From Isosphaeraceae bacterium EP7 (GTDB lineage: Bacteria; Planctomycetota; Planctomycetia; Isosphaerales; Isosphaeraceae), in contig CP151667.1 of assembly GCA_038400315.1 (NCBI GenBank), forward strand, positions 5,219,174 to 5,283,173: a stretch of 64,000 bases of DNA. The letters run 5' to 3'. Numbering within the stretch: position 1 is the stretch's first letter; each line of letters starts with the position of its first letter. The notes under the pieces were generated by a model. The model saw nothing but the letters and a program-made list of their open reading frames with translations. It was not told the origin of the DNA and made no database searches. Position numbers and translations under genes: made by a program. Shown one piece after another: positions 28,867-46,660 of this stretch.

Positions 28867-29037
28867 TCACGCCGTCTTGACTCGAAGACGACCAGATCAT
28901 CGAACGACCCCATCGCGGGCCCAGGACAAATGACTCACGAGCAATGATCCTCCAACGATGACAACGCGCGACCCTCGCGAAGGCAAGCGGAGAGTGTTGA
29001 ACACGCCCCTCAGACCGAAACTTGGTCACCTCGACCT

Positions 29038-29065
29038 TGACAATCATGGGGATCTGGACGAAACT
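29038..29065 (+). promoter_or_regulatory. Possible promoter of the tRNA-Gln gene
   Basis: A perfect TTGACA at 29038-29043 lies 16 bases before a weak GAAACT -10 box (29060-29065) and 12 bases further from the tRNA 5' end at 29078. The -35 box is convincing; the -10 box is weak. Confidence 0.4.
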
Positions 29066-29077
29066 AGCCCTGCAAAT

Positions 29078-29148
29078 TGGGGATTGGTGTAACGGTAGCA
29101 CGACTGACTCTGAATCAGTTAGTCCAGGTTCGAATCCTGGATCCCCAA
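29078..29148 (+). tRNA. tRNA-Gln (anticodon CTG)
   Basis: The acceptor arms TGGGGAT and ATCCCCA pair perfectly. The D-arm region reads TTGGTGTAACGGTAGCACG. The anticodon stem ACTGA/TCAGT encloses CTCTGAA with anticodon CTG, which reads CAG glutamine codons. The T-arm is TCCAGGTTCGAATCCTGGA. The discriminator is A, and CCA is not encoded. An integrase gene begins about 65 bases downstream, so this tRNA is the probable attachment site of the island that follows. Confidence 0.95.
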
Positions 29149-29213
29149 CTACTGACAGCGTAGGGAGTTGCGGCCGGCGACGGCTGGGGCGACGGCTCCC
29201 AAGTGCAGGAAAA

Positions 29214-30296
29214 GTGCAGGAACCCTGGTTCCGCAAGCAGACCAACGCTTGGTACGTCGAGATCGACGGCGTCCAGACCAGGCTCGGCCCGCATCCCGCC
29301 GATCGCCCGCCCGTCAAGGGCAAGCGCGGCTGGGCCCCGCCGCCGGAGATCGTCGAGGCCTGGCACGTCCGGATGCGCGAGGGGGGCCTGGCCCCCGCCA
29401 CCAAGGCGATCAACGCCGCCCGACTCTTCGACGAGTTCCTCGCTTTCGTCGACGAGACCGGCAAGGCCAAGACCCGGGACTGGTACCGGTTCTTCCTCCA
29501 GGACTTCAAGGACCGGCACCCGGCGATCGACGCCGCGGCCGTCGACGAGTCCCACGTCGAGCGCTGGCTCCGCGCCAAGCGGAAGCGGACCTGGGGTCAG
29601 TCGACCCGCCGGGGCGCAATCACCGCGCTGAAGCGGGTCATGAGCTGGGCAGTCAAGACCCGTCGCCTGACCGAGAGCCCCATCGCCCACATGAGCCGCC
29701 CGGCAGTCGTGCGTCGCGAGCGAATCCTCACCGCGCCCGAGCGGGGCGACATCCTCGCCCTATACCCCGAGGGCGACCCCTTCTGAGACCTGCTCGTCGC
29801 GCTGGCCGAGTCGGGGGCACGCTCCGGGGAGGTCATCCGCCTGACCGCCGCCGACGTCGACCTCCCCGGCGGCGTGGCCACCCTGGCCGACCACAAGACC
29901 GGCGGCAAGACCGGGGCGGCCCGGTTCATCTACCTGACCGCGGACCTCGCCGCGGTCCTCGCCCGCCTGGTCATCCTGCACCCGTCGGGCCTGCTCTTCC
30001 GCAACGCCGTCGGCAACCCCTGGACCCTGCAGGCGATCAACTGCCGGTTCCGCCGCAAGCGGGCCCGCAAGGTCGACCCCCTGGACGCCGATGTGACCGC
30101 CTACGTCTACCGCTCCAGCTGGACGACCGACGCCCTCGAGAACGAGGTGCCCATCGCCACCGTCGCGGAGCTGCTGGGCCACACCAGCACCGCGATGGTC
30201 TCGAAGCACTACTCGAAGCTCGCCGCCAAGAAGGACTACCTGCGGAGGGCGGCCCAGCAGGCGGTCAAGAAGCCCGGCGGCGACCCGCCTACTTGA
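29214..30296 (+). pseudogene. Tyrosine recombinase/integrase interrupted by one TGA
   Basis: The frame runs from GTG 29214 to TGA 30294-30296 but is cut by TGA at 29784-29786, inside EGDPF*DLLVALAESGARSGEVIRL. Homology continues without a shift on both sides. The N-terminal part has an Arm/AP2-like opening (PWFRKQTNAWYVEIDG) and a SAM-like core-binding domain. The catalytic part has the arginine in SGARSGEVIRL, a YRSSWTTDALE box where the usual H-x-x-R histidine is Tyr, and ELLGHTSTAMVSKHYSKL with the tyrosine nucleophile. A CGA to TGA change is the simplest cause. As it stands the enzyme is probably dead unless the stop is read through. Confidence 0.85.
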
Positions 30297-34346: not shown

Positions 34347-34763
34347 ATGGCGACGGCGATCGAAAACTACGCTCCGACCAATACTTACATCGCGCTGGTG
34401 AACGACTTTAAGCTCGCCCATATTCGCGACGCCGCGCACTTGGCGGCGGCCCTGGGCGTCGTGGACGGCCTCCTCTGTTGCGAGCTCGACGAGGGGGGCC
34501 GGGAGTATCTCGGCGCGCTTACCGACCTGATCGAGGTCTACGAGAATGCGACCATTCCCTCGCCGACGGCAGCCGTCCACGAGGTCATCCGCGCGCTAGT
34601 CGAGGGCAGCGACAGGAGCCAGGCCGAGCTGGCCGACGAGCTCGATATCTCCCAGTCGACGATCTCCGCGCTCGTCCGCGGGCAGCGGGCACCGACCTCC
34701 GAGCACATCGCCGTCCTCTCGAAGCGGTTCGGTGTCTCGCCGCGACTGCTCCTGCCCCGCTGA
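34347..34763 (+). CDS. higA: HigA-type antitoxin, XRE-family HTH
   Basis: A 138-residue protein. The C-terminal XRE HTH is clear: SQAELADELDISQSTISALV, RGQRAPTSEHIAVLSKRFGV, SPRLLLP. The N-terminal 75 residues would bind the toxin. It starts at ATG 34347 with AGGA eight bases upstream, 48 bases after the broken higB. It is intact and ends shortly before a strong terminator. Such proteins neutralise HigB and repress the operon. Confidence 0.88.
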   Translation: MATAIENYAPTNTYIALVNDFKLAHIRDAAHLAAALGVVDGLLCCELDEGGREYLGALTDLIEVYENATIPSPTAAVHEVIRALVEGSDRSQAELADELDISQSTISALVRGQRAPTSEHIAVLSKRFGVSPRLLLPR

Positions 34764-34870: not shown

Positions 34871-35916
34871 GAGCGGTTTCACTTTGACTGAGCCGGTTGT
34901 CCCTTGTTATCCCTTCCTGGATGGAGGGCATGGGGATGAAGGCTTATTCGACCGACCTGCGCGAGCGGGTCCTCGCCGCCTGCGACCGGCGCGACGGCAC
35001 CCGCGAGCAGATCGCCGCGCGGTTCTCCGTCAGCGTCACCTGGATTGGCAAGCTGGTGCGGCCGCGGCGCGACACCGGCTCGATCGCCCCCCGGCCGCAC
35101 GGCGGCGGGCGGGCCCCGGCCTTCGACGGCGAGGCCGCGGGGCGACTCCGCGAGGCGGTCCGGGCCGACGACGACGCCACGCTCGCGCCGTTGGCCGAGG
35201 CCGCCGGCGTGGGCTGCTGCCCGTCGGCCGTGCACCGGGCGCGGAGGCGACTGGGCATCACGCCGCCAAAAAAGTCGCGGCGGGCGGCCGAGCGGGATCG
35301 CCCCGAGTTGAAGGCGCACCGGCGGGCCTGGCGCGAGGAGTTCGCCGCGGTCAACCCGGGGCGGCTGGTCTTCCTCGACGAGAGCGGCGCCAGCACGGCG
35401 ATGGACCGTACCCACGGCCGGGCCCCCAGCGGGGTCCGCGTCGACGGCCCGGTGCCGCACGGCCACTGGAAGGTCACGACGCTGACCGCCGCGGTTCGCC
35501 TCGACGGCGTGCCGGCGGCGGCCTGCCTGGCCTTCGACGGGGCGACCAACGCCGCCTGCTTCGAGGCCGACATCGGCCGGTGCCTGGCCCCGACGCTCCG
35601 TCCGGGCGACGTCGTGATCATCGACAACTTGCCGTGCCACAAGACGGCCGAGGTCGGCCGGCTGATCGCGGCGGCCGGGGCCGAGGTGCGGTACCTGCCG
35701 CCGTACAGTCCGGACCTCAGCCCGATCGAGTCGATGTTCTCCAAGCTGAAGCCGCACCTGAGGTCGGCCAAGGCGCGGACGGCCGAGGCGCGGATCGGTG
35801 CGATGGGCGACGGCCTGAGGGCCGTCGAGCCGGGCGACCTCCGCGGCTGGTTCGGCCACTGCGGATACCGGAGCGGGGTAGAGGCGTCAACCGACACGCT
35901 CAAAGGAAAACCGGGC
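34871..35916 (+). mobile_element. IS630-family insertion sequence, copy A
   Basis: A 1046-base element flanked by TA (34869-34870 and 35917-35918), the IS630/Tc1 target. The terminal inverted repeats are imperfect: left GAGCGGTTTCACTTTGACTG, right (reverse complement) GCCCGGTTTTCCTTTGAGCG, and both continue to a shared CGGTTG. One transposase gene fills it. It inserted just after the higBA terminator, within or at the end of the right direct repeat. Confidence 0.85.
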
Positions 35917-35919
35917 TAG
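34936..35919 (+). CDS. IS630 transposase
   Basis: A 327-residue DDE transposase. The N-terminal HTH part opens MKAYSTDLRERVLAACDRRDG. The catalytic aspartates lie in RLVFLDESGASTAM and DVVIIDNLPCHK, and the glutamate in PPYSPDLSPIESMFSKLK. ATG 34936 has GGAGGG seven bases upstream. The last codon GGC is the last triplet of the element, and the TAG stop is made from the right-hand TA target duplication plus the next base. It looks intact. Confidence 0.93.
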   Translation: MKAYSTDLRERVLAACDRRDGTREQIAARFSVSVTWIGKLVRPRRDTGSIAPRPHGGGRAPAFDGEAAGRLREAVRADDDATLAPLAEAAGVGCCPSAVHRARRRLGITPPKKSRRAAERDRPELKAHRRAWREEFAAVNPGRLVFLDESGASTAMDRTHGRAPSGVRVDGPVPHGHWKVTTLTAAVRLDGVPAAACLAFDGATNAACFEADIGRCLAPTLRPGDVVIIDNLPCHKTAEVGRLIAAAGAEVRYLPPYSPDLSPIESMFSKLKPHLRSAKARTAEARIGAMGDGLRAVEPGDLRGWFGHCGYRSGVEASTDTLKGKPG

Positions 35920-36169
35920 GATCGTCCGTCGCCTCGAAGTCCTCAACCTCTCCGCCCTTGCACGATCCGTAGGACCCGACAATCGACCGTCAGAATCACC
36001 CGCCGGACGCACGATGGGTCTGGAGCGGTTCCCCGGCGACCTTCACACAAGGGAAGAGCGGGGCAGGCACCTTCGCTTCACCGCGGAGCCGGTCCCCTTT
36101 TCTTTGACCGCGCCAAGCAACCTGGAACTGCTCCGATGGCCTGGGCTGGGGCGGAAGACACGGAGGCCA

Positions 36170-37345
36170 TTAAACGCCCCTCGCCCTACCCCTGGTGGTG
36201 GAGATGTCGTGGGAGGCGGCCCATAGACCGAGGTCGCTCCGCGAGAGGGCGGCCCCCATCAGGTCCGGGAAGAGATCCGGCGTGCAGGCGAAGACCGGGA
36301 TGCCCAGGTCGGCCATACTCTGCGCGTTGGCGTGGTCGTAGCTCGGCGCGCCTTCGTCGTTCAGGGCGAGGAGCCCGATGGCCTGGACACCCGAAGCGAC
36401 AAGGCCGCCGAGGAGTTTGAGCATCTCCTCGCTCCCCGACCCTTCGTACAGGTCGCTGATCAGGATCAGGATCGTCTCCGCCGGGCGGGTGATCAGGCCG
36501 GCGCAATACGTCAGTGCCCTCGGCGTGTCGTTTCCCCCCCCGAGCTGAGTGCCGAAGAGGAGGTCGACCGGGTCGTGCAGTTCGGCCGTCAGGTCCACGA
36601 CGGCCGTGTCGTAGACGACGACGTGGGTCTTAAGCGCGGGCAGGCTCGCGAGGACCGCGCCGAAGATCCCCGCGTAGACGACCGAGGTCGCCATCGAGCC
36701 GCTTTGGTCGATGCAGAGGATCACCTCACGCATGGCCCGCCGCCTGCGGCCGAAGCCGATCCGCGTCTCGGGGATGATCGTGCGGTACTCGGCCTGGTAA
36801 TGCCGGAGATTCGCCCGGATCGTCCGGTTCCAGTCGATCTCGTGATGCCGGGGCCGCCGGCTGCGCGAGGATCGGTCGAGGCTGCCCGAGACCGCCTGGC
36901 GCATCGGCTCGGCGAGCCTGCGCTCCAGTTGGTCGACGACCGTGCGGACGACCGACCGGGCCGTCTCCCGGGCTTCGGGCGGGAGCACCGATCGCAAGGA
37001 GAGGAGGTTCGCGACGAGGTGCACGTCGGGCTGCACAGCGCGGAGCAACTCGGGCTGCTTGAGCATCTGCCGCAGGTCCAGCCTCTCCAGCGCGTCCTTC
37101 TGGAGCATCTGCACGACCGACGTCGGGAAGAACTTGCGGATGTCGCCCAGCCAGCGTGCGACCTTTGGCGCGGACTTGCTCATGCCGACGCGGCCCGACT
37201 TGTCGGCGTCGTAGAGCAGGGACAGGGCGCCGTCCATCGCCAAGTCGTCGTCGCCCAGGGCGATGCCGGTGCCGTCGGCCGAGTCGCCGCCGAGGATCAG
37301 CCGCCAGCGTCGAAGGCGTTCGTCATTGGATGGCGGGCCGCTCAT
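36170..37345 (-). CDS. VWA-domain protein of the YehP type
   Basis: A 391-residue protein, last gene of the four-gene leftward operon. The first 190 residues are helical and charged. The C-terminal half is a von Willebrand A domain with the MIDAS motif CIDQSGSMATS (DxSxS), a threonine in GGGNDTPRALTYC, and the final aspartate in LILISDLYEGS. VWA proteins of this kind partner with MoxR ATPases to remodel or load metal into target proteins. The ATG at 37345 overlaps the stop of the DUF5682 gene as ATGA. Confidence 0.88.
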   Translation of the reverse strand: MSGPPSNDERLRRWRLILGGDSADGTGIALGDDDLAMDGALSLLYDADKSGRVGMSKSAPKVARWLGDIRKFFPTSVVQMLQKDALERLDLRQMLKQPELLRAVQPDVHLVANLLSLRSVLPPEARETARSVVRTVVDQLERRLAEPMRQAVSGSLDRSSRSRRPRHHEIDWNRTIRANLRHYQAEYRTIIPETRIGFGRRRRAMREVILCIDQSGSMATSVVYAGIFGAVLASLPALKTHVVVYDTAVVDLTAELHDPVDLLFGTQLGGGNDTPRALTYCAGLITRPAETILILISDLYEGSGSEEMLKLLGGLVASGVQAIGLLALNDEGAPSYDHANAQSMADLGIPVFACTPDLFPDLMGAALSRSDLGLWAASHDISTTRGRARGV

Positions 37346-39621
37346 CGATCCGTCCCTCCGCCCAGGCCCAGGAGCTTCGCGACCAGGGGGAGCACGGTCG
37401 CGGCCCGCTCGACGTCGAGGTCGACCGCCGGGGTCGCCGAAGGACGCGAGGAAGTTGACGGCGAAATGGACCCTTTCGCCCGTTCGCCCAGGCTGCGGCG
37501 GAGCGGGGAGTCGAACGTGCCGAAGGTCCGGCGGAGCATCGGCAAGAGGATCGGGAACGCCTCGGGAGAGAGCGCGGCGAGCCAGCCGTCGAAGATGCCG
37601 AACAGGGCGTCGTCGTGATAGAGGACCTCGCCGCTCTGACGTAGGAACCCCTCGATCCAGGCGGCTGCGCGGGGCGGATCGGCGGCCGGAGAGACGGCCA
37701 GGTTCATCAGCCGGGCCGCCTCATCGGCGTCCCGCTCGCGGGCGTCGAGCAGGATTCGCACGCTGCGTCCGGCGATGAGCCCGTGGATCGTGTCGGAATC
37801 GGCGAGCCTCGCGAACGTGGTGTGCCAGGCCTCCCGGTCCTGTGCCTCGTCCATTAAGCCGATCGCCGCGTCGGCGCGGAGGATCGCGTCGAACATCGCC
37901 GAGGCCGCTGAATCGTCGAGCGACGAGCAGGCCAGCGGCAGGCCGACGCAGATCCTCGCGACCATGCCCGAAGCGGCGTGCCCCACCATTGCCGAATCGG
38001 TCCTGCGCACGCTGCCGTAGCGCGTCAGATTCGCCAGCGGCGGAAGTGCGTCCATCAGCTGTGTCACGTCGGCAGCGACCGCAGCCTGCGACTCGACCCT
38101 CGTCATGATCGACTCGGTGGCGGCGGGGAGGTCGGCGAGAATCGCTCGGTCGAGCAGGGCCGTCAACGCTGGCAGTTCCTCCTCGCGGCCGGCGCGGTCC
38201 GCGGCCAGTGCCGTCGCGGCATCCTCGACGGTCGCTCCCCAGATGCTTGCCTCGATCAAGGAGACAGCAAGCTCGGGCTTCCACTGGAGTTGCCAGGCTT
38301 CCTTGAACGTGCCCTTCCCCGAGACATGCGCCGGCGACCCCCAGGCGATGCCCAGTAGAGAAAGCCGATGCAGGAGGCGGCTGCGCTCTAGGTCCGTCGG
38401 CTCGCGCAGGTCGAGCGTCTTCGTCGTTTGCGAGGGTTCGGGGGCGAGCTTCAATCGCTTTTGGAGACGGTTGAGGTCCTGCTGCAACGGGACCGACGGG
38501 GTCTCCGCGGGCACGGCTCCGAGACGTTCGCCGACGACGAGCTTCCGGCGGATCAGTCGCATCGGTGCTTCCTCGCCCGAGCAGAGGACGGACCGAGTCG
38601 CCTCGTCCAGGTCGGACAAGTCGGGCAGCGGACGGCCGCGCATCGTCGCCAGGGCATCAGCCAGGCGGACCGCCTCGATCACCGAGGCCGAGGAAGCATC
38701 CAGGCGCTCGTCCCTGAGAAGGCGGGCGACCCGGGTCAGCCATCGCTCGATCACCTGATCCGGGGCGGTCCAGAGGTGGTCATACCAGCCCGGCGACACG
38801 ATGCCCGCACCGTAGCCGCTGTCGCGCATCAGTCGGCCGTAAGTCCAAGGCACCCAGGTGGCGGCGACCTTCGTCCTGGGGAGGCCCTTTAACAAGGCCG
38901 CATCGTCCCTGGCGGGTGGCCAGGCCTCGACGGCGAGCGCCGGGGCATGCCACGCGCCGCAGATGACGGCGATCGAGCGATGGCCTTCGCCTTGCGCACC
39001 ACGGATGGTCTGTCGCATGTGGGCCTCGCGTCGGATTTCCCTCAGATCGTTCTCAACGGGGACGCTGGACCGGACCTCCGCCATCGCGTCGAGGATCGCG
39101 GCGAACAGGTCCGCGCCGTCTCGGCGGCCCTCGACGACATACTCCCACCATCGCTCGCCATCGTCGAACCCGGCGGCCTGGGCGAGCATCCCGAGCGGAT
39201 CGACGGGACGGCGCGTGGGGGGCGACGGCTCGCCTGCAGTGGCCGGCTCGGACGCTTCGTCCTTCCCCTCGCCGAGTTGATGGGCGATGGGTAGGTCCAT
39301 GAACCGGGCGGGGATACCGCGATCAAGCGCGTATTTGAGCGCCTGCCATTCGGGCGAGAACTCTGCGAACGGGTAGTAGACCGAATCCCTCGGCTGGTCG
39401 GGACGGTACACCAGCAACGCGACCGGCGGGATCATCTCAGGATGGACCAGGAGCGGGATCATCGCGTCGGCGTCGGGCGGGCCTTCGACGAGAACGATGT
39501 CAGGCTCGATCGCCTCGAGCGCTCTGCATACGCTCCGGGCCGAGCCAGGGCCGTGGTGACGCACACCGAGGACGTGGATGACGGGGGCGGTCGTCGACCG
39601 CGAGGGTGTGAGGGTGGTCAT
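37342..39621 (-). CDS. DUF5682 family protein (YehM type)
   Basis: A 759-residue cytoplasmic protein. The N-terminal domain is the DUF5682 signature: VIHVLGVRHHGPGSARSVC, PDIVLVEGPPDADAMI, then FMDLPIAHQ and IAVICGAWHAPAL. The H-H-G-P-G and EGPPD motifs resemble a TraB/PrgY/ChaN-like fold with potential catalytic or metal-binding residues. Residues about 330-759 are helical repeats. The function of the family is unknown. It sits between the AAA+ gene (21-base gap) and the VWA gene (4-base overlap). Confidence 0.85.
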   Translation of the reverse strand: MTTLTPSRSTTAPVIHVLGVRHHGPGSARSVCRALEAIEPDIVLVEGPPDADAMIPLLVHPEMIPPVALLVYRPDQPRDSVYYPFAEFSPEWQALKYALDRGIPARFMDLPIAHQLGEGKDEASEPATAGEPSPPTRRPVDPLGMLAQAAGFDDGERWWEYVVEGRRDGADLFAAILDAMAEVRSSVPVENDLREIRREAHMRQTIRGAQGEGHRSIAVICGAWHAPALAVEAWPPARDDAALLKGLPRTKVAATWVPWTYGRLMRDSGYGAGIVSPGWYDHLWTAPDQVIERWLTRVARLLRDERLDASSASVIEAVRLADALATMRGRPLPDLSDLDEATRSVLCSGEEAPMRLIRRKLVVGERLGAVPAETPSVPLQQDLNRLQKRLKLAPEPSQTTKTLDLREPTDLERSRLLHRLSLLGIAWGSPAHVSGKGTFKEAWQLQWKPELAVSLIEASIWGATVEDAATALAADRAGREEELPALTALLDRAILADLPAATESIMTRVESQAAVAADVTQLMDALPPLANLTRYGSVRRTDSAMVGHAASGMVARICVGLPLACSSLDDSAASAMFDAILRADAAIGLMDEAQDREAWHTTFARLADSDTIHGLIAGRSVRILLDARERDADEAARLMNLAVSPAADPPRAAAWIEGFLRQSGEVLYHDDALFGIFDGWLAALSPEAFPILLPMLRRTFGTFDSPLRRSLGERAKGSISPSTSSRPSATPAVDLDVERAATVLPLVAKLLGLGGGTDR

Positions 39622-39642
39622 CGGCGATCGGTCCTCGATTGC

Positions 39643-40794
39643 TCAGACGACCTCACGGCACGCCCTGTACAAGTCCTTCCAGCCGTCCCGCTCCTTCACG
39701 ACCGTCTCCAGGTATTCGAGCCAGACGACGCGATCCTGCACGGGATCCTTGACGACCGCGCCGACGAGGCCCGAGGCGAGGTCGGCCGATCGCATGACTC
39801 CGTCGCCGAAGTGGGCGGCCAAGGCGAGCCCCTGATTCATGACGGAGATTGCCTCGGCCGTGCTCATCGTGCCGCTCGGCTGCTTGACCTTCACCTTGCC
39901 GTCGGCCGTCTGTCCCTCCCGCAGCTCGCGGAAGATCGTGACGACGCGGAGGAGCTCCTGAAGTCCCGGCGGCTCGGCCGGGAACGCCAGCGCTCGGCCG
40001 AGCGACTCGACACGGAGTCGGACGATCTCCACCTCCTCGTCGGCCGTCTCTGGTGTGGGAAGCACAACCGTATTGAACCGCCGCTTCAGGGCGCTCGACA
40101 GCTCATTGACCCCCTTGTCGCGATTGTTCGCCGTGGCGATCAGGTTGAAGCCCTTCGATCCCTGGACCTCGGAATTCAGCTCGGGGACGGGCAGCGTCTT
40201 CTCGGAGAGGATCGTGATCAAAGAGTCTTGGACGTCCGCCGGAATGCGCGTCAGCTCCTCGACGCGGGCGATCTTCCCTTCTTTCATGGCTCTCATCATC
40301 GGGCTCGGGACGAGGGCCTTCATGGACGGGCCTTCGGCGAGCAGGAGGGCGTAATTCCAGCCGTAGCGGATCGCCTCCTCGCTCGTCCCGGCCGTCCCCT
40401 GCACCAGCAGGGTCGAGTCGCCCGCGATAGCCGCCGCGATGTGCTCGGAGACCCAGCTCTTGGCCGTGCCTGGCACGCCGAGGAGCAGCAGGGCGCGATC
40501 GGTCGCGAGGGTGGCGACGGCGACCTCCATCAGGCGACGATTGCCGATGTATTTGGGCGTGACCTTGAAGCCGTCGTCCAGAGTCCCGCCGAGCAGATAG
40601 GTCGAGACGGCCCAGGGCGAGAGCTTCCATCGCGGCGGGCGCGGCCGGGTGTCGCCCCTGGCGAGCGCCTCCAGTTCCTCGGCGAACTGCTCCTCGGCAT
40701 GGCGGCGCAGAACAGTCGACAACGAGTCGTCCTGCCCGTTCGCAGCCGGGGTATCGGACCCGGGGGCGCCCGCACCGCTCTTGGTCCGGCTCAT
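39643..40794 (-). CDS. MoxR-type AAA+ ATPase (YehL type)
   Basis: A 383-residue AAA+ protein. Walker A is LLGVPGTAKSWVSEH. The Walker B region reads KIARVEELTRIP, with EE in place of a DE pair, followed by Sensor 1 LIATANNRDKG and the arginine-rich ALKRRFNTVVLP. A MoxR-like lid follows with SAEAISVMNQGL-type helices. MoxR ATPases act as chaperones with VWA partners. The ATG at 40794 shares ATGA with the stop of the SWIM gene. A longer open frame upstream is antisense noise inside the SWIM gene. Confidence 0.88.
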   Translation of the reverse strand: MSRTKSGAGAPGSDTPAANGQDDSLSTVLRRHAEEQFAEELEALARGDTRPRPPRWKLSPWAVSTYLLGGTLDDGFKVTPKYIGNRRLMEVAVATLATDRALLLLGVPGTAKSWVSEHIAAAIAGDSTLLVQGTAGTSEEAIRYGWNYALLLAEGPSMKALVPSPMMRAMKEGKIARVEELTRIPADVQDSLITILSEKTLPVPELNSEVQGSKGFNLIATANNRDKGVNELSSALKRRFNTVVLPTPETADEEVEIVRLRVESLGRALAFPAEPPGLQELLRVVTIFRELREGQTADGKVKVKQPSGTMSTAEAISVMNQGLALAAHFGDGVMRSADLASGLVGAVVKDPVQDRVVWLEYLETVVKERDGWKDLYRACREVV

Positions 40795-43700
40795 GAGTCG
40801 AACTCCCTGTGCATGTCGCGGCGGAATCGGAGTCGGTCGATCATCGTCGCATAGGCGGCGGCGTATGCGCCACGCGGGCCTTCTTCGTCGCCCACCCCAC
40901 CGGCGGCCTCGTCGGCGAGCTCGAACGGGAGGACCTCGGCCAGGGCATGGATCAACGCGATCGTCGGATGGTCGTGATACTGCGGATCGTACTCCCGGCC
41001 CGACCATTTCTGCAGCGTCGCCATGCGAGCGGGATCGGCGAACCGTACGCGCTGCTCGCCGACGATCGGCCGCACTCGCCCGAGGATCTCGCGGGCGACC
41101 GGCACTCCGACCGGGCCGTTGAGCGAACCGACTAGGCCGAAGGCCGGGTGTGAAGGGCGGAGGGGACCGGGCTCGGCCCGGAGGCGGCGTAACAGGAACG
41201 CATCCCGACGATCGGGCGGCAGGACCGCGAGGAGTCCCTGGTCTTGCGAGTGCCCGCCGAGGTCCGAGGGCTTGCCGGGACCGGCCTCCAGCAGCGCCTC
41301 GGCCCACTCCGCGTCGCGCTGGCGGATCGCCGAGGTCGCCCAGGCCGTCCGCAGGACTACCTCCCATTCCCCGCCGCGGTTCGCCTCGACGACCTGCGCT
41401 GGCCCGTGCTCCAGGATCGCGGCGATCGCCTTCGTCGGGACGCTTGACACGATCTCGTGCAGCCACCAGCCCCGCTCGCCAAGCTTGAGATAGGCCGGCG
41501 GCTTCGGCTCCACGCCATCGCGGATCGTCGCCTTGTCGCAGGATGTCGGGGGGGCGACGACGAGGGTCCCGCGTCCCAGCCCGAGCATCGCGCGTTTCCA
41601 GTCCAATGCGACTCGGGCACGATCAATCATGCGGAGGCAGAGCCTCGACTCCGGTAGGCTCCGCAAATGTTCGGCGGCCTGGCGACGGACCTCCTTGCTC
41701 CGGTCGTCGAGCGCGGCCTCGAGGAACGGCTCGTCCTCCATCGACAGGCCGCGCGCGAACTCTCCGACGAACGCGGCGCGGCGGTCGGCTGCATCCGCCG
41801 TGAAGGTCGAGGCGACGAGTTCGCGGGCGCGTCCGGGGTCGCTGGCACGCAGGCCCCTAAGGACGGCCATCCGCTCGTGCAATGCGCCGGTCTCCCAGGT
41901 GATCGTCGGGTCGGCGGCCTCGTCGCTCCGCGCGTGCTTCCTCCACCTGGGACGCTTCGCCGCGAGCCAGCCGCCCCGGACGCCCAGGATTTCTCTCAAC
42001 GACTTCGGGGCGACCTCGTGATTCTCGCACCAGGAGAGCACCCCCACGATCGCGTCGTCGTTCAGCCTCCTGCCCGAGGCCGCCAGTCGCTCGATCCAGT
42101 CGGGCAGACATTCCGGGTGATCACCCCCTAACATCCTCCGCAGCCTTGCGGCAGCTGCCGGCTGGCACGCAGGCTGGTCATCGGTCGGGCAGACGTCGGG
42201 CGGGGATGACGGGTCGATCGCGGGCTTGCGGCCGACGCGGCCGTAGAGGCTCGAAGCCACCGCGATGGATAGAAGGCGAGAGGGAAGATCCTTCGCGTCC
42301 AGCCCTGGGAGTGCCCGACCGATCGGGTCGTCGGCCGAGGGCAATGGGGGCGGCCGTCGATCGATCCCCAGCAGCGCCGAAGCTGTCGCCTCGTCCATCA
42401 GCGGGAGGGGAACCGGCGTCGAGCTCGCCGAGGACGGCGATGGGGACGTCTCCGGAGTGACCAGAGGCAAGAACCTTCCGCCCGCCCGGGCGCCCAGGGG
42501 ATCGAGCGTTGTGCCGTCGAACTCGCCACAGATCGTCAGCGGCCCGCCGCCTTCGAGGGCCAGCAGGTCCCAGCCCCCCTGGAATCGCTTCGAGAGGGGG
42601 ACGACCGCTCCCGAGATATCTCGCGCCGACCACGTCCCGTCGACCTCTTGGAGCACGACATCGTCGAGGATGATCGGATAAAGCTCCAGCCAGGGGTTCT
42701 GCGCCAGTGCAACACCGTAGGCCGCGAAGGCCGAGGCGATCGTCGCCCCGGCGGAGAGAGCTTCGAAGGGCGTCGGCGTTGCGTGGCGTTCTTTCACCAG
42801 GGCCCGGAGCGGAGCCGAGCCCGGGAAAAAGGCGAGTTCTGCGTCGATCAGGACTCCGGGCGGAAGGCTCAGGTCAAGCGGCCTTCCGCCGGCGGAGAAG
42901 TCGAGAACCAGCGCAGGGCGGCCCGTGTCGCGACCAATCATCCACGTACGTAGGATCGTCAACTGATCTTCGATCGAGACGGCCCGGCCGATGACCTGCC
43001 AGCGATCTCGGACCCCGAACCCGGCGCGGATCACGTCAAGGTCGGCGGTGTACCCGATCGCGGCGCGAACGTCCTCGGCGACCTCGGTTGGTAGCTCGGC
43101 CAGCCTCCGGAACCCCTCGACGAGGAGGTGGATTCGCGACAGATGGTCGAGAAGATTGGCCTGCCAGCCCTCGCCGGCCATGGACATCGCGTCGACCTGT
43201 CTGAGCCTCCTTGCCACGCCGGGCGCCTGGGCGTCGATCATCCGACGGGCCCGGTCCTCCCAGAGATTCCCGGACTTCGCGCCGAGCGAGGCGAACCCCT
43301 GACGAACGAGGTCCGCGATCCAGAGTGAGAGGTCGTCGAGCCCGGCTGCGACCTTGGCGTTGCGGGCCGCGTCGCGCTTCGCCCTGGCGGCGAGGTCGGC
43401 GGGAGCCGGCCCACGCTCCGACTTCGACTTCGCCTGCTCGGCCTTCTTCTCGCGGTTCTCCTTCCAGGAGATGACCCATGCAGGGGGCGCCCCCCGGGTG
43501 AACGAGGCCGGCTCGGATGCCCAGATTAGTGACAGCCCGAGGCCGTGCTTGCACGGGAATTTGCGGCTCGGGCAGGAGCAGGAGAATGCCGGACCGTCCA
43601 GGTCGACCTTAGTCTGATAAGGGTTCGCGCCGCTGCCATGGCACTCGCCCCAGATCAGGCCGTCGCCCGCCCCGAGGCTCGCCCATTTCCTCGCGGAGGC

Positions 43701-43859
43701 CAGGCCCTGCCCCGCCTTGGCCGATGCTGGGTCAGGCGCCAGCGCCAAAACCGTTGCCTCGTCCCAGTTGGACGTCACGAGGATTCCTCGCGGCTCGAGC
43801 GCTGGGGTCGCGTGAGAATCCCAATTTGCGACGAAAGGGCCGATCCGGGCGAGCCGCAT
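40791..43859 (-). CDS. SWIM zinc-finger protein fused to DUF5691 (YehQ-like)
   Basis: A 1022-residue protein, first gene of the operon. The SWIM motif CSCPSRKFPCKHGLGL (CxCx6CxH) lies at about residues 92-105, after an N-terminal region with W-G-E-C-H-G-S-G. SWIM fingers bind DNA or proteins. From about residue 560 the sequence reads as DUF5691: LGVRGGWLAAKRPRWR, TWETGALHERMAVLRGLRAS and FLEAALDDRSKEVRRQAAEH, a HEAT-like pattern. In E. coli the SWIM partner YehQ lacks such a length, so I read this gene as a fusion. The ATG at 43859 follows a 318-base upstream gap. Confidence 0.83.
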   Translation of the reverse strand: MRLARIGPFVANWDSHATPALEPRGILVTSNWDEATVLALAPDPASAKAGQGLASARKWASLGAGDGLIWGECHGSGANPYQTKVDLDGPAFSCSCPSRKFPCKHGLGLSLIWASEPASFTRGAPPAWVISWKENREKKAEQAKSKSERGPAPADLAARAKRDAARNAKVAAGLDDLSLWIADLVRQGFASLGAKSGNLWEDRARRMIDAQAPGVARRLRQVDAMSMAGEGWQANLLDHLSRIHLLVEGFRRLAELPTEVAEDVRAAIGYTADLDVIRAGFGVRDRWQVIGRAVSIEDQLTILRTWMIGRDTGRPALVLDFSAGGRPLDLSLPPGVLIDAELAFFPGSAPLRALVKERHATPTPFEALSAGATIASAFAAYGVALAQNPWLELYPIILDDVVLQEVDGTWSARDISGAVVPLSKRFQGGWDLLALEGGGPLTICGEFDGTTLDPLGARAGGRFLPLVTPETSPSPSSASSTPVPLPLMDEATASALLGIDRRPPPLPSADDPIGRALPGLDAKDLPSRLLSIAVASSLYGRVGRKPAIDPSSPPDVCPTDDQPACQPAAAARLRRMLGGDHPECLPDWIERLAASGRRLNDDAIVGVLSWCENHEVAPKSLREILGVRGGWLAAKRPRWRKHARSDEAADPTITWETGALHERMAVLRGLRASDPGRARELVASTFTADAADRRAAFVGEFARGLSMEDEPFLEAALDDRSKEVRRQAAEHLRSLPESRLCLRMIDRARVALDWKRAMLGLGRGTLVVAPPTSCDKATIRDGVEPKPPAYLKLGERGWWLHEIVSSVPTKAIAAILEHGPAQVVEANRGGEWEVVLRTAWATSAIRQRDAEWAEALLEAGPGKPSDLGGHSQDQGLLAVLPPDRRDAFLLRRLRAEPGPLRPSHPAFGLVGSLNGPVGVPVAREILGRVRPIVGEQRVRFADPARMATLQKWSGREYDPQYHDHPTIALIHALAEVLPFELADEAAGGVGDEEGPRGAYAAAYATMIDRLRFRRDMHREFDS

Positions 43860-44178
43860 CCCCGCTTACTTACCTGGAGCGAGCCCCGAGCCCGCCACGA
43901 TAACATATTTCGACGCCCTGATCGGGAAGTCACCGGTGGGTCCCATCCCGCGGCCATGCTCGCCTCGCCCGTAGATCCAGCGGGTAGTTGAAGCGACGGG
44001 ATGGCTCGATTCAAGAGAATTCCTGCCGACCCTCTCAAGAGTTCGTCGTCACCATGCCGGCCGGAAGTTTGGTTTCGATCCCCTCGATATCACGAAGGCT
44101 GTGGTTCGCGGGACCTTTCCGCCGCCGTGTGTCTCTTCGATCGATATTGGGTCCGCTAGGTCGAGCAAGCCGAAGTTA
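43860..44178. other. Upstream region of the SWIM/MoxR/DUF5682/VWA operon
   Basis: About 320 bases between the operon start and the left end of an IS630 element. It must carry the operon promoter unless the element displaced it. I see no gene and no strong hairpin. The insertion 318 bases upstream may have cut off distal regulatory sites. Confidence 0.45.
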
Positions 44179-45287
44179 TTGTCCTTTCAGGTAGTCAGGT
44201 TTTTGTTTCGTCGGCATCTCGCCCGTAACGTCTTGGGATGCCAAGCACCCGATCTCCGTCCGAGCTCGAGGCCCGACGCCGCCTGGCGGTGACGCGGGTC
44301 AATGAGGGCTGGAAGCAGAAGGATGTCGCCGCGTTCCTGGGCGTCTCGCTCAAGGCCGTCGGCAAGTGGATGGCCGCCTATCGCGCCGCCGGCGAGGACG
44401 GTCTCAAGGGCAAGCCGCACCCGGGGCCCGCTCCGAAGCTGTCGCGCAGGCAGGAGCGGTCGGTCTTGTCCTGGCTGGCCGTCAGCCCCGAGGCCTTCGG
44501 CGACAAGACCCAGCTCTGGACCACCCGCAGGCTGGCCGAGGTGATCGCCCAGCGGTACGGCGTCCGCTTCAACTCCAACTGCCTGGCCGAGTGGCTCAGC
44601 CGCCGCGGCCACTCGCCGCAGAAGCCCGTGACCACGGCGGTGGAGCGCGACAACCCGGCCATCGCCCGCTGGGCCGCCGAGGACTGGCCGCGGATCAAAA
44701 AAAAGCCCGGGACGAGCGGGCCCACGTCGTCCTGATCGACGAGAGCGGGTTCTTCCTCAACCCGACGCTACGTCGGACCTGGGCGCCGAGGGGCCGGACA
44801 CCGGTGCTGACGGGGTTCGGCCGGCACCGCGACAAGGTCTCGACGATTGCGGCGATCTCCGTCGCCCCGCGGCGACGCCGTGTCGGCCTCTACTGGCGGA
44901 CCGACCCGGCGCATTACATCGACGGGGCGGCGGTCGTGGCATTCCTGCGCGATCTGCTGCGGCACCTGCGCGGCGCGGTCGTGGTGATCTGGGACGGCGG
45001 CAGCAACCACAAGGGGCCATTGATGCGGGGTCTCCTGTCGGAGTTCCCCCGGCTGCACCTGGAGCGGCTGCCGGGGTACGCCCCGGACCTCAACCCGGTG
45101 GAGAGGATCTGGGGCTACCTGAAGCACGGCCTGCTGGCGAACTTCGTGCCCCGCGACGTGGGCCACCTCGACCGGGTCGTCCGCGCTCACCTGGCCGAAC
45201 TCCGCGGCCATCCGGCACGGATCCGGGCCCTCTGGGCGGGGTCAAAGCTGCCCTACCCCGACAAGAACCTGGCAACCTGAAGGTCAA
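44179..45287 (+). mobile_element. IS630-family insertion sequence, copy B (different subtype)
   Basis: A 1109-base element flanked by TA at 44177-44178 and 45288-45289. Inverted ends: left TTGTCCTTTCAGGTAGTCAG, right (reverse complement) TTGACCTTCAGGTTGCCAGG, continuing to a shared GTT(T/C)TTGT. Its transposase is only distantly related to that of copy A, so this is a separate arrival. Confidence 0.82.
44238..45280 (+). CDS. IS630 transposase in two frames joined at an A8 run
   Basis: Frame one (44238-44735) encodes the HTH region: WKQKDVAAFLGVSLKAVGKW and the linker to about residue 154. Frame two, the -1 frame, continues from the run of eight A at 44697-44704 to TGA 45278-45280. It holds the DDE core: VVLIDESGFFLNP, AVVVIWDGGSNHKG and LPGYAPDLNPVERIWGYLK. 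A -1 slip at A-AAA-AAG restores one product of about 347 residues. Programmed frameshifting at such runs is known in several IS630 elements, so the element may be active rather than broken. Confidence 0.8.
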
Positions 45288-45312: not shown

Positions 45313-46205
45313 AAATCGTTTCATAACGGTCGCATCGTGATCAGCATGCAGGCCAGGTGAAAGAACGCCCGGTACATCCGCGGCGTCCGCTCGTGCCGGA
45401 CCAGCAGCCGGCGGAAGTTGCCCAGCCAGGCGAACGTCCGCTCCACCCGCCACCGCCGCCTGTAGTAACGACGCAGCCGGCCCGCCCGCTGAGTCGCCGG
45501 CCTCCTGCGGTTCCTGCGGTGCGGGCAGACCATCTCGATCCCCCGCGCGGCCAGCCGGTCCCGCAGCGGGTCGCTCTCGTAGGCCCGGTCCAGGATCAGC
45601 AGCCTCGGGCGTGGCGTCGTCCCATCCCGCCGGCGCTTGATGCTCACGTTGTCGAGCGTCCGCTCCACCTCCGATGGGCGGGCCGAGTCGAGGTGGCAGG
45701 CCAGCGGGACGCCGTCGCCGTCGACGACGAGCATCCACTTGGTCCCCTTGCCCTTCTTGGTGGGACCGACGCCGCCGCCCCCTTCTTCGCCGGGGCGAAG
45801 GACCCATCGGCGCAGCACTCGTCCCATCGCAGCCGCATCCGGTCGTCGAGCGCGCCGAGGAAGGCCCGCCGGGCGGCGACCCAGGTGCCGTCGGCCTCGC
45901 ACGCGGAGATCCGTCGCCGGCGCCGGGAAGCCCTCGGGCATCGCCCTCCATCGGGCGCCGTTGCGGAGGATCCAGAGGATGCCCTCGACGACCGGGCGGT
46001 TGGGGACCGGCCTGGGACCGGCCCTGGCCGAGGCCCGGGGCTCGGGGAGGTGGGGTGCGAGCAGGGCCCATTCCTCGTCGGCCAGCTCGGGCTGGCGGAT
46101 GCAGATGATGCGTTTGCGGGCCATGCGACGCCTCCCGGGGTAGAGACATCGTACGCAAGGGGTCGGTGTGACTGAAGTTGCGTGCAGACGGTTAGGAAAC
46201 GACCT
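45313..46205 (-). mobile_element. IS5-like insertion sequence, full-length copy
   Basis: About 893 bases with imperfect inverted ends: TCGTTTCATAACGGTC at the left and, reverse complemented, TCGTTTCCTAACCGTC at the right. The ends are defined by comparison with the shortened copy at 52943-53414. The left end lies 23 bases from the right TA of the IS630 copy B, so the two elements are nested side by side. No clear target duplication was found; exact ends are uncertain by a few bases. Confidence 0.78.
45321..46124 (-). pseudogene. IS5-family transposase with two compensating frameshifts
   Basis: From ATG 46124 the frame reads MARKRIICIRQPELADEEWA as expected for an IS5-family (IS427-like) transposase. 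At about 45910 it leaves the ancestral frame. Some 45 residues that read EADGTWVAARRAFLGALDDR and WDECCADGSFAPAKKG are then in another frame. It returns at about 45775. All three catalytic residues lie in the restored frame: D in MLVVDGDGVPL, D in LLILDRAYESD, E in RRWRVERTFAWL. The open frame is continuous, but the scrambled middle probably impairs it. Confidence 0.75.
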
Positions 46206-46363
46206 GCTTCGGCAAGGAATCCCAGGATGAGGATCACGAGGGAGAATCCGAGCACCGGTAGCGTTCCGGAAGGCTAAGTGTACGCGTTTACGAGTTGAGG
46301 AGAGAGGCCCCACTGCATACGAATACGCTGATATTGGGAGGGGGACGGCAGTGGCGTCCGGCC

Positions 46364-46660
46364 TCATTCGGCATGAAAAGCAAAGTTCCAAAGCCAGTCT
46401 TCGACTGCTTGCACTATCTCTGCCTTCGAGCAGCGCTCCAACATTCTCAGCGGATTAGCCCAAGAAGCTCGCATTTCCTCGTCGTTGGGGCATCTCCGAA
46501 TCGCGAGAAGGCGGAAGGTGCCATTCGGGTCGCCGTCAGGATACCACCCAAGGTCGAGCAGGACCGAATTCCGCTCATGTGATAGTTGGAGGAGATCCTC
46601 GCCGAATCCAATCAAAGCCTGATCGCCGGCTTCAAACCTGGTCTCGGTATCAAGGAACAT
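46364..46660 (-). CDS. Small protein of unknown function
   Basis: A 98-residue acidic protein (for example LLDLGWYPDGDPNGTFRLL, CSKAEIVQAVEDWLWNFAF). The ATG at 46660 follows GGGAGG by about ten bases. Size, acidity and position among small accessory genes would suit an immunity-type protein, but I recognise no family. Confidence 0.5.
   Translation of the reverse strand: MFLDTETRFEAGDQALIGFGEDLLQLSHERNSVLLDLGWYPDGDPNGTFRLLAIRRCPNDEEMRASWANPLRMLERCSKAEIVQAVEDWLWNFAFHAE

Follow-up and report, generated by a model that had tools for sequence, protein, structure and literature searches.

The four adjacent genes at positions 36170-43859 of the stretch of DNA analysed here form one conserved module, in which a SWIM-DUF5691 fusion protein, a MoxR-type AAA+ ATPase, a DUF5682 protein and a CoxE-type VWA protein are encoded together. 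The stretch, called the window throughout, comprises 64,000 nucleotides of contig CP151667.1 of Isosphaeraceae bacterium EP7 (forward-strand positions 5,219,174 to 5,283,173; host genome 7.2 Mb). The N-terminal domain of the DUF5682 protein resembles, in its sequence profile and conserved residues, the Tiki/TraB/ChaN hydrolase superfamily, and we put at about one in two the probability that the operon specifies a single machine in which the MoxR-VWA pair acts as a motor that switches on or feeds a Tiki-type hydrolase while the SWIM-DUF5691 protein recruits the target.

All four open reading frames (ORFs) are intact and read leftward (Table 1), and they are coupled by ATGA overlaps at 40791-40794 and 37342-37345 and by a 21-base gap (39622-39642) that separates the MoxR stop from the DUF5682 start. 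An earlier reading made from the sequence alone (the sequence-only reading) had proposed an operon with just these junctions and these four protein types, and both proposals held, the Pfam profiles recovering SWIM at 5.5e-4 and the remaining domains at the values given in Table 1. Scans of positions 35900-44300 found no promoter (0.4 expected) and one terminator-like site, on the opposite strand (3.0 expected). A scan of species genomes yielded at least 589 confirmed DUF5682 relatives, of which the best 80 were used, so that the set leans to the window's own type. The order SWIM, DUF5691, MoxR, DUF5682, VWA was found on one strand in 65 of these 80, one of the 65 carrying a DUF4132 gene between DUF5682 and VWA; among the other 15 loci, seven show DUF5682 alone and eight miss at least one part, partly through contig ends. 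SWIM and DUF5691 share a single ORF in three of the 80 relatives, as they do in the window. The findings that the sequence-only reading had named as fatal to its proposal, namely no DUF5682 or SWIM match or homologues lying apart in other genomes, did not occur: both domains match and the relatives are co-located. A MoxR tree of 71 of the 80 loci and the window, spanning 13 taxonomic groups, required 19 changes of taxon label, where shuffles gave 47.2 and the fewest possible is 12, which points to inheritance within groups for the most part and to transfer or paralogy in some cases; the nearest named relative of the window in this tree is an Isosphaeraceae bacterium (Planctomycetota).

Within the planctomycetes, 31 longer stretches including the window, covering 31 of 32 places, were compared, and MoxR and VWA adjoin DUF5682 in 29 of them, three of the 29 carrying a divergent DUF5682 detectable by the Pfam profile only. 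DUF5682 genes with no MoxR or VWA neighbour detected were seen at L037:8671-11145 and L038:8732-11248. Because the divergent loci retain MoxR, DUF5682 and VWA and do not always show a SWIM gene in the search used, these three look like the core of the module. Three loci of a divergent type (L039, L040 and L063) have the order VWA, MoxR, DUF5682, with the DUF5682 matches in pieces.

The genes also tend to be kept together when they are not neighbours. Among 149 genomes drawn from the phylum, DUF5682 was over its cut-off in 18 and DUF5691 reached E <1e-20 in eight, all eight with DUF5682 (hypergeometric 8.8e-9; seven of seven and 7.3e-8 with the window excluded), the threshold having been chosen after the list was inspected and the hypergeometric value ignoring the kinship of the genomes. 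At the curated cut-off DUF5691 was present in ten genomes, eight of which have DUF5682; the matches in the remaining two, G115 and G191, are short and partial, and seven further genomes held DUF5691 fragments below the cut-off. One genome (G037) retains both DUF5682 and DUF5691 at a distance of ~345 kb on one contig. Twelve genomes whose DUF5682 locus missed a partner were examined, some of these cases being contig-end cuts or misses of the first search; elsewhere in these genomes VWA was found in 12 of 12 (best match 58-67% identical), MoxR in 10 of 12 (70-80% identical to the window's, in other lineages) and SWIM or DUF5691 in 9 of 12. At four loci with long flanks (L068, L100, L102 and L110) the genes look truly dispersed; the search of the L068 genome gave no SWIM-DUF5691 match. 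The opposite arrangement was met in two genomes, where DUF5682 and VWA_CoxE occupy one open frame beside a MoxR gene (L033:7467-12410 and L059:7851-11498; Pfam values 4.6e-145 and 1.3e-50, and 5.3e-143 and 2e-53, for DUF5682 and VWA_CoxE) with the motifs of both fusions intact. Such gene fusions usually mean that the partners are in contact, and those found here therefore suggest contact between DUF5682 and VWA. Both fusion genomes belong to the window's family, so the fusion may be a single event.

The case for an enzyme rests on the N-terminal domain of DUF5682. Few residues are invariant when 22 divergent members, 23-78% identical to the window protein, are aligned. Among them are R21-H22, E46, S89-P90-E91, D109, R198, G222 and H225, and the presence of H22, E46, E91, R198, G222 and H225, which include the candidate catalytic residues, in 22 of 22 speaks for an enzyme. 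The first motif, G19-V-R-H22, takes the form [G/P][V/I]RH, with G in 14 of the 22 members and H in all, and the second, G222-A-W-H225, preceded by R198, is found in all 22. In the AlphaFold2 model, H22 follows strand 14-20, E46 follows strand 42-45 and H225 follows strand 216-222, and beyond them lies a long helical region. This succession of strand-GxxH, strand-Glu, Arg helix and strand-GxxH is that of the Tiki/TraB/ChaN/Ere proteins, whose active members rely on a pair of His and a pair of Glu residues, a conserved basic residue lying close by (PMC6254334), and E46 lines up, in a forced alignment, with a Glu that is conserved in ChaN and TraB. The HHGPG and EGP motifs, to which the sequence-only reading had ascribed a possible enzymatic use, sit in this probable active site. 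The DUF5682 proteins differ from the known superfamily in the form of the first motif, in the helical repeat and in the linkage to MoxR and VWA. Their spacings agree with those of the superfamily, at 24 versus 28 residues from His to Glu and 27 versus 29 from Arg to the second His.

Profile comparison points the same way. With hhalign, whose E-values are those of single pairwise comparisons, the DUF5682 N-domain matched ChaN at 86% (E 4.6e-6) and TraB at 21% (E 0.001), compared with <0.3% for the MoxR, VWA and two column-shuffled controls, <0.1% for the DUF5682 C-domain and 57% for TraB versus ChaN, the yardstick of accepted relatives; the whole DUF5682 family matched ChaN at 75% (A1) and 52% (A3). 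Judged on these profiles, the kinship appears to favour ChaN, and TraB more weakly. Apart from DUF5682 itself, the top Pfam match of the 22 members was TraB_PrgY_gumN (3/22, best 1e-4), followed by ChaN/Tiki (2/22, best 0.0011), with AAA_lid_2 and EthR_C in two members each (0.017 and 0.027) and ELYS in one (0.0017). A search of 40 related genomes with the TraB profile returned a single place, below the cut-off at E 2.3e-4, and it lay within a DUF5682 gene. Against the sequences of solved structures the DUF5682 profile gave noise (best E 0.065), and the ChaN profile finds 2g5g_X. Helical-repeat proteins dominated the Foldseek results for the whole DUF5682 model. One structure match, chain 7w5z_E of Tetrahymena complex IV, covers DUF5682 residues 9-237 (Z 9.3, root-mean-square deviation (rmsd) 4.5, 186 aligned), and ciliate complex IV has, according to a figure legend, a TraB-family subunit (PMC10060162). 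Because neither the TraB profile nor one TraB protein finds this chain by sequence, and 'TraB' does not occur in the text of PMC10227065, we do not call it TraB.

The other three proteins carry the features expected of their families. In the MoxR protein, Walker A and sensor 1 (70 of 71 relatives each) and the arginine-finger motif (67 of 71) are all present. The Walker B place (residues 175-183) reads IARVEELTR and thus bears a Glu where Asp is usual; [VI]EELTR recurs among the relatives, 53 of 71 fitting the pattern, and YehL of E. coli has EEITR. The VWA protein has the metal-ion-dependent adhesion site (MIDAS) motif DxSGSM, kept in 71 of 71 relatives and reading DQSGSM at residue 213 in the window. 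The SWIM domain barely exceeds its Pfam cut-off (19.9 versus 19.6 bits), and its assignment is firm because 65 of 66 relatives retain the CxCx6CxH zinc motif, the exception being a truncated ORF, and because residues 30-123 of the AlphaFold2 model (mean predicted local distance difference test (pLDDT) 85.6, predicted template modelling score (pTM) 0.64) have as their best structural match ZSWIM8 (9rwz_N; Z 10.3, rmsd 2.4, 93 aligned). ZSWIM8 is the receptor of a CUL3 ubiquitin ligase, and its solved structure includes an AGO2-RNA target; unlike the window protein it is eukaryotic, and the comparison covers the SWIM domain only. The DUF5691 model is a helical repeat for which the structure lists are headed by HEAT/ARM-type proteins, with scores typical of repeats. 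The pairing of a MoxR ATPase and a VWA protein with a zinc-finger partner, as the sequence-only reading had described it, was thereby borne out.

Taken as one machine, the MoxR protein would form the ATPase ring that serves as motor, and the VWA protein would be the adaptor of this ring, holding a peptide through the MIDAS. The DUF5682 protein would act as effector, being a hydrolase-like member of the Tiki/TraB/ChaN/Ere superfamily that is extended by a long helical repeat. The SWIM-DUF5691 protein, headed by a zinc finger and with a second part that resembles HEAT/ARM repeats as its arm, may recruit the target. ATP-driven remodelling could then either activate DUF5682, for example by seating a metal or opening the active site, or feed a remodelled target to it. 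Where such pairs have been studied, the VWA protein takes hold of a peptide through the MIDAS, and the MoxR ring remodels whatever is bound there (PMC7159879). The form of the machine in which ATP fuels hydrolysis, a SWIM-HEAT receptor catching the target, MoxR-VWA remodelling it and a Tiki-type protease or other hydrolase receiving it, is put forward tentatively and is rather unlikely.

The main rival holds that the MoxR-VWA pair is a cofactor-insertion chaperone like NorQ-NorD or CoxD-CoxE, inserting a metal or haem, with DUF5682 as a ChaN-like binder of metal or haem, a carrier or a client, whose role would not lie in hydrolysis. The window shares with those systems a MoxR ATPase and a VWA partner of CoxE type (PMC13036017, PMC7159879), the VWA protein itself matching VWA_CoxE; NorQD, which drives metal insertion by remodelling NorD, provides the precedent (PMC13036017), and the closest match of DUF5682 is ChaN, Pfam's haem-binding Tiki family. 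A thinner indication is that yehM is among many genes mutated in copper-exposed E. coli (PMC12409786). Unlike NorQ-NorD and CoxD-CoxE, however, the window type has a dedicated DUF5682 and SWIM-DUF5691 and no target metalloenzyme was found adjacent to it, clustering and sequence reading revealed no recurrent metalloenzyme among 727 flanking ORFs of the 80 loci, and DUF5682 has the two His and the Glu that a catalytic Tiki protein should carry. We regard insertion as possible and rather unlikely. Nor did the same 727 ORFs reveal another recurrent partner: their clusters reach 11, 8, 5 and fewer loci, and the top two are generic by sequence reading, GAF/kinase (11 loci) and ABC ATPase (8 loci).

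Comparison with E. coli suggests a named group to which the window's operon may belong. The products of yehL, yehM, yehP and yehQ match AAA_5, DUF5682, VWA_CoxE and SWIM respectively, as the sequence-only reading had suggested, and their genes are adjacent on one strand; seven MoxR subfamilies have been named, YehL among them (PMC3893208). A phmmer search with YehL found the window-type MoxR at 1e-70 and the reverse search gave 7e-71, and the window shows the features of the YehL type, namely the MoxR motifs, an adjacent CoxE-type VWA protein with MIDAS and an adjacent DUF5682. The E. coli operon differs in its order L-M-P-Q, with the SWIM gene last, in a divergent DUF5682 (YehM, ~25% identical to the window's) and in the adjoining DUF4132 genes (yehI and kin), which are not so placed in the window. 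DUF4132 was considered as an obligate partner and rejected: 7 of 80 loci have it close to the operon, and the window's genome has it far away only. The loci with DUF4132 beside the operon, L095, L101, L117, L119, L121, L129 and L133 (Bacteroidota), echo the yehI-yehL arrangement of E. coli.

Several observations weigh against the single-machine reading or its enzymatic part. In E. coli, YehQ has no DUF5691 at E 0.01 and a genome-reduced strain survives without the yehLMPQ operon (PMC10652928), while several divergent loci have no SWIM gene detectable by the search used. In DUF5682, Pro replaces the Gly of the first motif in 8 of 22 members, one of the 80 relatives (L126, a metagenome bin) reads GIRRHG and has lost H22, and the single-profile Pfam matches to TraB and ChaN, in three and two of 22 members, are below the curated cut-offs and weak alone. 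The confident hhalign columns number 34 and cover the Arg helix and second GxxH stretch alone, with a forced full-length alignment also bringing the first motif and the Glu into register; the whole family matches TraB at 6%, and neither ChaN nor TraB is among the whole-model structure matches listed. The GExH Glu of ChaN and Ere is likewise absent, its place being taken by V20 or I20 and R21. This last point would suit an alternative in which DUF5682 is an inactive Tiki fold acting solely as a binding platform for MoxR-VWA, and inactive Tiki folds do exist, such as PMT without catalytic residues (PMC6254334). TraB proteins, however, are also without that Glu (GTxH), so its absence excludes the ChaN/Ere subfamilies and not the superfamily, and H22, E46, E91, R198 and H225 are unvarying in the 22 divergent members; a mere scaffold is accordingly improbable.

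The distribution of the operon bears on a further alternative, an anti-phage or other conflict system built on a plan akin to the MoxR-vWA ternary conflict systems, which the sequence-only reading had entertained as a protection or conflict role and which the data do not support. MoxR-vWA pairs do occur in conflict systems, planctomycetes included, and both arrangements join MoxR and vWA to a third component (PMC7159879); insertion sequences flank the window's copy, and 50 PADLOC models match some of 109 flanking ORFs at 1e-10, a count with no baseline from a sample of 109 of 293 eligible ORFs in low-GC loci only, in which the matches listed look generic (kinases, MotA/ExbB-like). In contrast to those systems, the third part here is DUF5682, not VMAP, iSTAND, FtsH or a beta-propeller, and the partners are fixed. 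The main text of PMC7159879 makes no mention of yeh, SWIM, EreA or DUF56, and a Pfam scan of the four proteins, in which no profile for VMAP or iSTAND was run by name, listed neither. PADLOC applied to the four proteins gave nothing better than E 0.014, the profile for MoxR of the beta-propeller ternary type (bpMoxR) scored 21.9 bits versus a cut-off of 27, the MoxR protein evolves slowly, no variable effector was seen at a fixed place, and a scan of viral contigs produced 14 pattern matches, of which none was confirmed. The order conserved in 65 of 80 relatives, across 13 groups, also speaks against this role, as do the age of the gene set and the core status of the operon in E. coli, where 5162 of 5426 genomes contain 80% or more of it, with a median of one place, 5320 places being on chromosomes and 2 on plasmids. 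In the plasmid collection 36 of 72,556 records gave matches, some of them replicons of millions of bases, and in the phage collection a single record (MT835988.1, L189:166-4876), a faecal scaffold labelled 'unverified bacteriophage' with MoxR, DUF5682 and VWA together, is probably bacterial DNA. A conflict role is therefore unlikely, at long odds.

Transposases lie on both sides of the operon (Table 1), so that the earlier description of the operon as lying between two mobile segments is correct in the narrow sense; as to any part in the system, the flanking insertion sequences look incidental to the operon and need not belong to it. The second DDE_3 transposase, split over two frames, resembles a frameshifted or programmed-frameshift insertion sequence, and a small antitoxin-like HTH_3 protein (5.1e-13; 34347-34763) adjoins the first. 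About 7 kb from the operon, a tRNA-Gln gene (29078-29149) with an integrase-like ORF directly after it (29022-29786 region; Phage_int_SAM_1 0.0031, below the cut-off) is a possible tRNA-borne mobile element.

Table 1. Positions of the operon, its domains and the flanking transposases in the window
Feature	Position	Strand	Basis
SWIM-DUF5691 fusion protein, proposed recruiter	40791..43859	-	1022 amino acids; ORF and Pfam
SWIM zinc ligands CSCPSRKFPCKH, residues 94-105	43545..43580	-	motif and ZSWIM8 fold match
DUF5691 region, residues 492-1020, helical repeat	40800..42386	-	Pfam 1.2e-113
MoxR-type AAA+ ATPase, proposed motor	39643..40794	-	383 amino acids; AAA_5 9e-38
DUF5682 protein, proposed enzyme	37342..39621	-	759 amino acids; Pfam 3.5e-275; AlphaFold2 mean pLDDT 91.1
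Putative Tiki/TraB/ChaN-like domain of DUF5682, ~residues 14-260, with H22, E46, R198, H225	38842..39582	-	
CoxE-type VWA protein, proposed adaptor	36170..37345	-	391 amino acids; VWA_CoxE 8.4e-51
DDE_3 transposase	34897-35919		flanks operon
Second DDE_3 transposase, two overlapping frames	helix-turn-helix (HTH) part 44238-44735, DDE part 44366-45280		
IS4/5-type transposase	45321-46391		

As a kind the locus is no novelty, since its gene set can be seen in databases and the YehL subfamily of MoxR already has a name. In the open-licence literature, DUF5682 was found in no paper, no paper joined three of the terms DUF5682, DUF5691, DUF4132, SWIM zinc finger, MoxR and vWA, and no description was found of what the YehL-type MoxR ATPases do, of the Tiki assignment of DUF5682, of a HEAT-like DUF5691 or of the whole machine. 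Papers joining SWIM, MoxR, VWA and YehL terms did exist, none of those listed including SWIM, and the mentions of yehM among those listed were mostly unrelated.

Genes of the YehL type belong to the E. coli core and keep the same company across phyla. The placement of DUF5682 near Tiki would turn this association into a biochemical prediction, with named residues, an enzyme and a motor-adaptor-enzyme complex, so that unstudied genes become a testable machine. If the prediction is true, MoxR-VWA chaperones would be tied to a hydrolase, a link not found described in the same literature, and a hydrolase machine of this kind would represent a new class, an analogue of the AAA+ proteases with unrelated components that bacteria of different phyla have conserved.

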